Shown here piece after piece: positions 31,340 through 37,453 of a stretch of DNA of 38,016 nt (position 1 is its first letter; the number at the start of each line of letters is the position of its first letter). The notes beneath the pieces are model-generated. The model ran no database searches and was not told where the DNA came from. It was given only the letters and a program-made list of their open reading frames with translations. Location of the stretch: contig CASGAB010000010.1 in the NCBI GenBank assembly GCA_949299395.1, positions 1-38,016 of the forward strand, read 5' to 3'. Made by a program: the position numbers and the translations under genes. The stretch comes from an uncultured bacterium. GTDB taxonomy: Bacteria > Bacillota_I > Bacilli_A > RFN20 > CAG-826.

Positions 31340-32755
31340 TTATTTAAACATTATCTCTAAATCTATTAAATGAAGATTATTATCTTTAATATTAGTTATT
31401 TTTTCATCAAATCCATTTGCCCCAAATAAATATAACTCAATGTTTTCTTTTTTATAACTACTGAATAATTCACTAGTTAGATCTTCTTTCATATCGTTAT
31501 AGTCTCTAATAGTTCTTTTTCTTTTAGAGAATTTTGTTTCGGCAACTAAAAGTTTATCGTTGTAAGAAGAAATAATATCTATTTCAACACTTCTTTTTAA
31601 CTTTTTAGAATAATATTCAAAATTTTCAAACTCTAAAAATAATCCATTTACATTTCCTTTTTTAACTTCTTCTTCTAAATAAGTTAAACAAGTTTTTTCA
31701 TAGCGATGTTCAATAAATTCATTAATCGAATTCATTAAATCTTTTTTAATTAATTTTCCATATCCATTTCTAATCATTTCGCTATTTTCTCTTATAAAAC
31801 GATAATAAAAAGCTACCATTGGATCAAAAATTTCATAACGAATATCTTTTTTAGATGAAAATGATGATCGGCGAATTAAGATTTTATCATCAACCAATTC
31901 TTTTATATATTTTGAGATCTTAGCAGTTTCCATATTTAATCTATTTGATAACTCTTTAACTGAGTCAAAACCTTCAGCAATATATTTAATTAAAGAAGCA
32001 TATAATCCACCTCTAGCCTTATCACTAGTAATTAAATTAGTTGGTTGTTCAATAAATACTCCAGTTTCTTTAAAAAATAAATTATCTAAGTTTTCATCAA
32101 AACTTTTGGAAGCATCAATTAAAGAAAGATAGTATGGAAAAGTATTAGTTAAAGATAATATCTTAACTTTTTCAAAATTGTCTTTAATATTTTTTAAACC
32201 AATTAAAGCTTCACTAAAATCAAATTTATTAACTAGTAAAGAAAATGTATTTCTTTGATATAAAGGAGCTTTAACATTTCCGATTTCTTTTTCTAAAAAA
32301 GAAACATTACTACCAGTTAAGATTAAAGTAAATTTTCTATTTTTATAAAAAAGATCAATTGCTCTTTGTAAAGATGAAGCAAAGTCAGTTACTTTTCTTT
32401 TTCAATCTCTATTTAAAACAATCAAAGGGTATTCATCGAAACATACTAAAACTTTTTCATCTTTAATGAAATTATCCATCGCTTCGAAAAATTGATTCCA
32501 ATCCTTATAAACACCATTATTAACATTAAAAGTTTTATTAAGTGTTCTAGAAAAAGCTTCTCTTTGTTCAATATCAGAAGAATCTGTTGCATAAAACATA
32601 AGAGTTTTTTTATTTTCACTGAGCATATTTAAAAGGGTTGATTTACCAATTCTTCTTTGACCATAAATATATCCAAACTCAAAAGAAGATGAGTTAAATC
32701 TTTCATTTAATAATTCAAGTTGTTTTTCTCTACCATAATACTTATTATTACTCAT
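31340..32755 (-). pseudogene. AAA ATPase (DUF234/DUF4143-like family) interrupted by an in-frame TGA
   Basis: One continuous frame of 471 codons encodes an ATPase of the archaeal-type family: Walker A IYGQRRIGKSTLL (near 30-42), Walker B VLVCFDEYP (near 102-110), the ILTGSNVSFLEKE sensor strand, a winged-helix region and a C-terminal nuclease-like domain (EIDIISSYNDKLLVAETKF). Codon 118 (32402-32404) is TGA. The frame is otherwise intact on both sides, so a single substitution or recoding explains the break. Read normally it yields 117-residue and 197-residue pieces. The family is abundant in gut bacteria, with debated roles in mobile elements or toxin-like systems. Direct repeats lie in its promoter. 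Confidence 0.8.
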
Positions 32756-35624: not shown

Positions 35625-35912
35625 ATGGAAAAAGATGAATTAAATTTATATCGAGAAAAAATCGATGAAATCGATTCTAAAATTATTGAATTATACGAAA
35701 AAAGAATGGATATAATTAAAAAAGTTAATGAATATAAATTAAAAAATAATATTCCTACTTTTGATTCTTCTAGAGAAAATACAATGCTTGAAAAAAATTT
35801 ATTAAAAATAAAAAATAATCAATATAAAAAATATTATCCGTTAATTTTAGATGGCTTTTTAAAAGCTAGTAAAAAAATGCAAGATGATTCAAAAATAACT
35901 TTTAATTTATAG
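35625..35912 (+). CDS. Chorismate mutase (AroQ class)
   Basis: This 95-aa all-helical domain catalyses chorismate to prephenate. The AroQ residues are visible: LYREKIDEIDSKIIEL (Arg near residue 9), EKRMDIIKKV (Arg near 26), KLKNNIP with Lys near 39, and SRENTMLEK with Arg/Glu near 50. It is monofunctional, with no prephenate dehydratase or dehydrogenase attached. AGGGGG-like sequence (CGGGGGAAAC) precedes the ATG. It is last in the U32-SLC13-chorismate mutase unit. The only pathway genes seen nearby are the U32 protein, so prephenate may serve tRNA modification as well as Phe/Tyr synthesis. Confidence 0.87.
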   Translation: MEKDELNLYREKIDEIDSKIIELYEKRMDIIKKVNEYKLKNNIPTFDSSRENTMLEKNLLKIKNNQYKKYYPLILDGFLKASKKMQDDSKITFNL

Positions 35913-35936: not shown

Positions 35937-35964
35937 TAAAAAAACAATAACATTATGCTATTGT
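35937..35964 (-). terminator. Minus-strand terminator after the decarboxylase remnant
   Basis: The stem ACAATA/TATTGT with a 9-nt loop is followed on the minus strand by seven T. It sits directly downstream of the acetolactate decarboxylase pseudogene and would have been its terminator. Confidence 0.65.
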
Positions 35965-35997
35965 CTTAAATAGAAATAAATTATTAAATTTATTTTA

Positions 35998-36260
35998 TTA
36001 TCCTTCAATGACTTTAGTTTTTTCATTTAAATTTTCACTTAGATTTGAGGATGAAAACTCTTCAGAATTAGGGAAATTATATTCCATTGATTAAATTTAT
36101 ATATTTTATAAGTTGCTTTACTTGAAGAAAACTTAAATATATGACAACCATATTTTAAATCACGTGATAAGAAGTGAATGTGCCGTCCTGATAAATTTAT
36201 TCCACCAACAATCACTTAAAATTTATTTAAAGATAAAAAAATTAGTATCTCAAATGCATA
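35998..36260 (-). pseudogene. budA: Remnant of alpha-acetolactate decarboxylase
   Basis: In this 420-bp apparent gap the minus strand reads IVGGINLSG-x-HIHFLSRDLKYGCHIFKF, the zinc-binding C-terminal core of acetolactate decarboxylase (usual form G-W-HLHF-S-D-R-GGH). A frame change later, it reads MEYNFPNSEEFSSSN, ending KTKVIEG and a stop at 35998-36000, like the family's C-terminus. Upstream the frame is broken by stops, with only a faint YAFEI block. The enzyme would make acetoin from acetolactate. The residue before HIHF is a CGG codon (36183-36185) where the family most often has Trp. It is clearly decayed, with a matching terminator downstream. Confidence 0.7.
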
Positions 36261-36330
36261 ATTTTAATTATTTATAACTTAATTATAAGTATTTTTAAAA
36301 AATTTAATAAAACAATCAGCAATACCAATA

Positions 36331-37065
36331 TTATATTGTAACAATTAGAGTAGATTCAGTCCCAGCAGAAACTTCTTGAATGATTTTACCATTTTTAAAG
36401 TGTGTTGCTCCGCCTCTAGCAATTTCAAAGTACTCTTTATCGAGGTAATAAGAATTAACATATAAAACTGGACATTTTAAAGATTTAACTTGATTTGCAT
36501 AAGAATATTTTTCGGTGTTATTCCAAACATTATAATTAAAATCTGTATAAACAGGCCATAAAAGTAAATCTAATTCAAGATTTTTATATTTAATGATGTT
36601 TTCATCAAACCATAAATCTCCACAGAGTGAAATTGCAATTTTTTTATTTTTTAAAACAAAAAATGAACATTCATCTCCTTCTTTATAATTTTCATTGGCT
36701 GAGATTTCTTTCCAACCTTTCGATATTCTGCGGTAATTATGAATTATAATTCCTTTATGATTTATAACAATTTGACTACTATAAATTGATTCATTGAAAA
36801 ATTCAAAATATCCAAATGAAACAGCAACATTATTCTCTTTTGCGTGTTCACTTATTTCTTTTATAATTTTGTCACTTTTAGAAATTGCAATTTGTTTATC
36901 TATTGTGTAATTCCGACTTAACGAATCAAAACCTTGTAAAAATGATTCTCCAAAAACAATTAAATCAATATCTTTTGGAGAAGTTTTAATTACTTTAATA
37001 ATTTGATTTTTATTAAAATTAATCTCTTTATTTTTAAATCCTACACAAGCTAATAAAATTTTCAT
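36331..37065 (-). CDS. Carbon-nitrogen hydrolase (nitrilase superfamily)
   Basis: This 244-aa protein has the Glu-Lys-Cys triad: E40 in VFGESFLQGF, K116 in YRRISKGWKE and C148 in ISLCGDLWF. The family hydrolyses amides or nitriles and includes N-carbamoyl-putrescine and omega-amidase types; the substrate here is not clear. Codon 51 (36913-36915) is CGG in GFDSLS-x-NYTID, where relatives that I recall have Trp (GFDSLSWNY). It is probably Trp under table 36. AAGGA lies before the ATG. It is a single gene; its end is close to the acetolactate decarboxylase remnant. Confidence 0.82.
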   Translation of the reverse strand: MKILLACVGFKNKEINFNKNQIIKVIKTSPKDIDLIVFGESFLQGFDSLSRNYTIDKQIAISKSDKIIKEISEHAKENNVAVSFGYFEFFNESIYSSQIVINHKGIIIHNYRRISKGWKEISANENYKEGDECSFFVLKNKKIAISLCGDLWFDENIIKYKNLELDLLLWPVYTDFNYNVWNNTEKYSYANQVKSLKCPVLYVNSYYLDKEYFEIARGGATHFKNGKIIQEVSAGTESTLIVTI

Positions 37066-37379: not shown

Positions 37380-37453
37380 TGGCGGGGGTGGAAGGAATCG
37401 AACCCACGTCAACGGTTTTGGAGACCGCTGTTCTACCATTGAACCACACCCCC
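37380..37453 (-). tRNA. trnW: tRNA-Trp, anticodon CCA, CCA end encoded
   Basis: Read on the minus strand, acceptor GGGGGTG pairs with CACCCCC, the D-stem is GTTC/GAAC, and the anticodon arm GCGGT-CTCCAAA-ACCGT has anticodon CCA (loop positions 34-36). The T-arm is GTGGG-TTCGATT-CCTTC, with a T-T mismatch at 50-64 where most Firmicutes tRNA-Trp have T-A. The discriminator is G and the CCA tail is in the genome. It decodes UGG. A CGG-reading tRNA-Trp would need anticodon CCG and is not present in this window. yqeY lies directly upstream on the same strand. Confidence 0.93.

Follow-up and report, generated by a model that had tools for sequence, protein, structure and literature searches.

The closest described counterparts of the gene considered here are the acetolactate decarboxylases BudA and AlsD (PF03306, TIGR01252), encoded in the budABC and alsS-alsD operons, where the decarboxylase (ald) is the second enzyme of the route. 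The family carries an HxH...H motif which, together with a C-terminal Glu, we take to be the metal-binding site. A second described protein of relevance is KdgT, the 2-keto-3-deoxygluconate permease (PF03812, TIGR00793), since the gene that precedes intact ald in relatives of our organism belongs to PF03812. In addition, a change of CGG from arginine to tryptophan has been published for uncultivated RFN20 Bacilli and for Anaerococcus (Shulgina and Eddy 2021, PMC8629427).

The locus described here lies in genome G000, a draft assembly of 1.24 Mb in 39 contigs; the window, by which we mean the whole stretch of 38,016 nucleotides that was analysed, is its contig C10 and has a GC content of 26%. 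We conclude that the locus is very probably a pseudogene: what remains is the 3′ half of an ald gene, in decayed form, and this gene probably used to be the second in a cassette encoding a KdgT-family permease and Ald.

The acetolactate decarboxylase relic

The approximately 420 bp between the chorismate mutase (CM) and CN-hydrolase ORFs (Table 1) contain no ORF of gene size. On the minus strand, however, positions 36209-36001 correspond in two frames to residues 165-234 of acetolactate decarboxylase. The frame at 36212-36078 matches PF03306 with 31-35 bits (E ~1e-8) against a family cut-off of 25 bits, and adding the 3′ frame raises the score to 45 bits (E 8e-12). In a frameshift-aware alignment, the best relative, L006 of genome G023, gave a score of 220, compared with 23-39 for 12 shuffles. 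An earlier note on this DNA had proposed a broken 3′ half of budA/alsD with frame changes and stops, and both the homology, recovered by a frameshift-tolerant search, and the lesions were confirmed: the frame shifts once, near 36073, a TAA stands in frame at 36218-36216, and the 5′ half is gone. The first ~120 residues of the protein are missing, and the relic adjoins the stop codon of the CN-hydrolase ORF. It is the sole PF03306 match in G000, and no other piece of ald was found in the genome. The relic resembles BudA and AlsD in that it aligns with residues ~165-234 and retains the three metal-site histidines (GRHIHF...GCH) and the C-terminal Glu-Gly (EG). It differs from them in lacking the 5′ half, and with it a full-length ORF of ~240 residues, in its frameshift and stops, and in its altered invariant residues. 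Judged from its sequence, the relic is not an enzyme.

Table 1. Features of the relic and of the site that contains it (positions in the window)
Feature	Position	Strand	Basis
Chorismate mutase (CM) ORF, last of the U32 peptidase - DASS transporter - CM trio bordering the site	35625..35912	+	PF01817
Intrinsic terminator of the relic, most likely the former ald terminator; core stem of 9 bp, extended to 12 bp by A-U pairs that reach into the run of seven T	35938..35967	-	Folding
ald relic, 3′ segment, residues 211-234, PNSEEFSSSNLSENLNEKTKVIEG, shifted frame	36001..36072	-	Frameshift alignment and tblastn to intact congeners
ald relic, main segment, residues 165-209, three His of HxH...H, CGG at the Trp173 site	36075..36209	-	PF03306 match, alignment
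Probable further ald relic, residues ~120-164, TAA at 36281-36279, 36266-36264 and 36218-36216	36210..36335	-	Collinear match
Carbon-nitrogen (CN) hydrolase ORF, intact, directly upstream of the relic	36331..37065	-	PF00795
tRNA-Trp(CCA), opposite border of the variable site	37380..37453	-	

Further upstream (36335-36210), residues 120-128 are matched (YNIGIADCF against FNVRVRSCF), collinearly and with an in-frame 9-bp offset. In position-constrained shuffles this match has p ~0.002, and 21 of 1896 windows of the contig were equally good; when the upstream part was aligned without the position constraint, the match was not significant. We hold with moderate confidence that this part is ald relic too, in which case the entire relic would run from ~36335 to 36001 plus the terminator; the extent of 35998-36260 given in the earlier note is right for its clear part.

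The relic has altered 10 of the 33 positions that are invariant among 12 intact copies, whereas intact copies alter between none and three, and at conserved first and second codon positions it differs in 8 of 61 (~13%). On a tree of the fragment its branch measures 0.44, whereas end branches have a median of 0.06, and it could not be placed among the congeneric sequences. The relic therefore shows both of the marks expected of a pseudogene, namely disabling lesions in a gene with intact homologues in relatives, and relaxed constraint. Since 58 codons of the main frame are free of stops and the metal-site histidines are preserved in it, one could ask whether ald has given rise to functional small proteins, encoded by the open frames of 58 aa or 29 aa. 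With less than a third of the enzyme left, 10 of 33 invariant positions altered and no such frame in the congeners' loci examined, this is highly improbable. A sequencing or assembly error in an intact gene might be suspected in a draft of 39 contigs, yet the lesions are several and independent (the missing 5′ half, the stops, the frameshift and many substitutions), so that a single error cannot explain them, and no further ald piece exists elsewhere in the genome; we give this explanation hardly any credence.

Genomic site and terminator

The earlier note had also assigned the relic its own terminator, at 35937-35964, and a hairpin is indeed present there: at 35967-35938 it has a folding energy of -9.7 kcal/mol (z -4.8), and seven T follow it on the minus strand. 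Being AT-rich, it escaped a simple consensus terminator scan. A hairpin likewise follows the stop codon in most of the intact congeneric ald genes examined, so that the relic hairpin is most likely the old ald terminator. Of the whole relic it alone may still work, now probably ending the transcript of the upstream CN-hydrolase gene.

The CN-hydrolase ORF occupies the spot where the 5′ half of ald and a KdgT gene would be expected. On the other side of the relic, the U32 peptidase - DASS transporter - CM trio is kept in congeners. An intact full-length ald, which the earlier note had suggested looking for at the same locus in close relatives, does occur in 10 of 25 congeners, but at the CM/tRNA-Trp site it is absent from every congener examined, and the nearest relatives of G000 (G003, G014 and G022) have no ald whatsoever. 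No credible ald remnants were found at the corresponding locus of other congeners, and DNA-level blastn of ald genes against these loci gave only noise.

As ald is missing from this site in all congeners examined, the arrival of a fragment has to be weighed against decay in place. A piece of ald, horizontally acquired or translocated and never functional here, could have been inserted with the CN-hydrolase gene between CM and tRNA-Trp. A homologue of the CN-hydrolase is found in only one of the 25 congeners, G010, as a C-terminal fragment of 94 aa; in G010 tRNA-Trp and YqeY also come after CM, and G000 does not share the DNA that separates CM from tRNA-Trp there. The neighbours of ald differ among congeners as well. 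On the other hand, the relic retains its own 3′ terminator and is most similar to congeneric ald, and no mobile-element gene was recognised directly beside it. We consider the arrival of a fragment unlikely, though deserving of serious attention, and favour a pseudogene left by the decay of a resident gene. In a tree of the U32 and DASS proteins, the clade of G000 (G003, G005, G014, G016 and G022) is without intact ald, G005 and G016 being just 70-74% complete. The simple reading is that ald was lost in this clade and that a relic of it remains in G000. The earlier description of the loss as recent finds no backing here, given that the nearest relatives are without ald and the relic is much diverged.

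Two observations on the surrounding genes may be recorded. The CM proteins of G000 and G003 share 93.5% identity, compared with only 71-74% for the neighbouring DASS and U32 proteins, an excess that could reflect gene conversion or the transfer of a single gene. Elsewhere in the window, DUF234 and ATPase_2 pieces on one strand (31340-31933 and 32402-32755) look like the split halves of a single ATPase gene; in the congener G025 an ORF of 468 aa (L109:12751-14157) matches the DUF234 piece of this pair.

Intact ald and its permease partner in relatives

The intact copies of the congeners score above the PF03306 cut-off, and both of the intact proteins tested, L006 from a congener and L003 from the same order, pass TIGR01252. 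A gene for a KdgT-family permease lies directly upstream of ald in all ten congeners that carry it and in G036, G038 and G048, and the same pair occurs in G276, G310 and G407, which belong to another family of the same class. The adjacency was seen in 16 genomes of the class in total (for example at L006:232-2199 and L002:1450-3394, with 14 other loci). Among the 59 relatives searched, KdgT was found in exactly the ten congeners, G036, G038 and G048, with one further match below the cut-off in G010; it is absent from G000. The KdgT homologue scores 120 bits against the TIGR00793 equivalog model, whose cut-off is 454, which makes a substrate different from that of KdgT plausible and, in our judgement, probable.

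The enzyme that would supply acetolactate is not seen alongside this pair. The probe for acetolactate synthase, TIGR02418, detected the enzyme or a relative in 14 of 14 control genomes, and it found none in G000, in nine of the congeners, or in G015, G018, G036, G038, G048, G276, G310 and G407. The ald-bearing G001 yielded a single synthase fragment of 25 bits, below the TIGR02418 cut-off. Fifteen of the 16 genomes with the KdgT-ald pair are therefore without acetolactate synthase, and G001 has only the sub-cutoff fragment. A search with PF02775 returned weak partial matches, confined to long ORFs, which from the ORF lengths we read as other TPP enzymes. In this respect the genus of G000 is unlike the alsS-alsD and budABC systems: as far as tested it lacks acetolactate synthase, and the partner of ald is a permease. 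The classical arrangement is found in G188, G431 and G247, where acetolactate synthase is next to ald and the 1.5-kb flanks showed no KdgT. Neither an adjoining KdgT nor a synthase was found for the intact ald of G055, G058 and G261. In G423 a sub-cutoff relative of the synthase is on another contig, and no KdgT was seen, ald being 530 bases from the contig end. In G321, of the same class, ald is seemingly in two pieces (L221 and L222), without a synthase; the frames contain TGA codons.

Because no route from pyruvate to acetoin is visible in the genus, the proposal in the earlier note that the relic marks a loss of acetoin production is unsupported; neither G000 nor the ald-bearing congeners have a synthase, the 25-bit fragment of G001 aside, and ald is tied to KdgT instead. 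The linkage to KdgT and the absence of the synthase suggest that Ald in this genus acts on imported acetolactate or an analogue. The KdgT-family permease of the congeners would most likely take up acetolactate, or a closely related 2-hydroxy-3-oxo acid, that other microbes produce, and Ald would then decarboxylate the imported acetolactate to acetoin in a step that consumes a proton and might bring an energetic benefit. In such a scheme the permease would stand in for the synthase in the genus. The relic copy would also once have had a KdgT partner, and its lineage would have lost the permease and the 5′ half of ald, leaving a remainder with a frameshift, stops and unconstrained substitutions. 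The lost function was most likely that of a permease-decarboxylase cassette using imported acetolactate. The more general proposal, a two-gene module for scavenging acetolactate in organisms unable to make it, since lost from G000, we put forward only tentatively. In the literature we searched, no paper names both acetolactate decarboxylase and 2-keto-3-deoxygluconate permease, and nothing relevant on acetolactate uptake was found.

The relic itself is an ordinary pseudogene, and the permease-linked Ald without a synthase is a side result of some note. In this group ald is not a marker of acetoin synthesis, and caution is needed in calling acetoin production from ald alone. A permease-linked ald without a synthase also hints at cross-feeding on acetolactate.

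CGG as a tryptophan codon

The follow-up of the relic provided an independent check of the reading of CGG as Trp in the genus. CGG is rare in G000, with 17 occurrences against 596 of TGG in 392 genes (2.8% of Trp codons). Opposite CGG, homologues carry Trp at 14 of the 15 aligned sites of G000, at 23 of 25 in G014 and at 6 of 8 in G020; opposite CGA and AGG they mostly carry Arg. A smaller comparison, with less relative sequence, gave 2 sites only and was uninformative. A gene for tRNA(CCG) is present at C12:29554-29625, with G73 and with an anticodon loop, CTCCGAA, that resembles the CTCCAAA of tRNA-Trp; overall it is equally like tRNA-Arg(ACG). No tRNA(UCG) was seen in G000. The alignments indicate that CGG is read as Trp in G000 and in the two congeners. 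In its low GC, rare Trp-aligned CGG, tRNA(CCG) gene, CGA still read as Arg and lack of a tRNA(UCG), G000 is like the CGG-to-Trp code reported previously (PMC8629427), and it is by these features that we liken the two.

The relic, too, has a CGG at a Trp site, as noted earlier: the codon (36185-36183) falls at Trp173. Of 15 relatives, 14 have Trp at this site and L015 has Phe; in all 12 tabulated sequences the codon is TGG. It had further been suggested that this codon had its altered meaning before the gene decayed. The single codon is uninformative on timing, because CGG accounts for 2.8% of the Trp codons in live genes and, in a dead gene with ~13% of its sites changed, a T-to-C change by chance is about as likely. 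The order of events proposed is better supported by the reading of CGG as Trp in G000, G014 and G020, the three genomes of the genus that were examined: the code change appears to be genus-wide and so is probably older than the decay of ald. The CN-hydrolase ORF next to the relic has one CGG codon, at residue 51.
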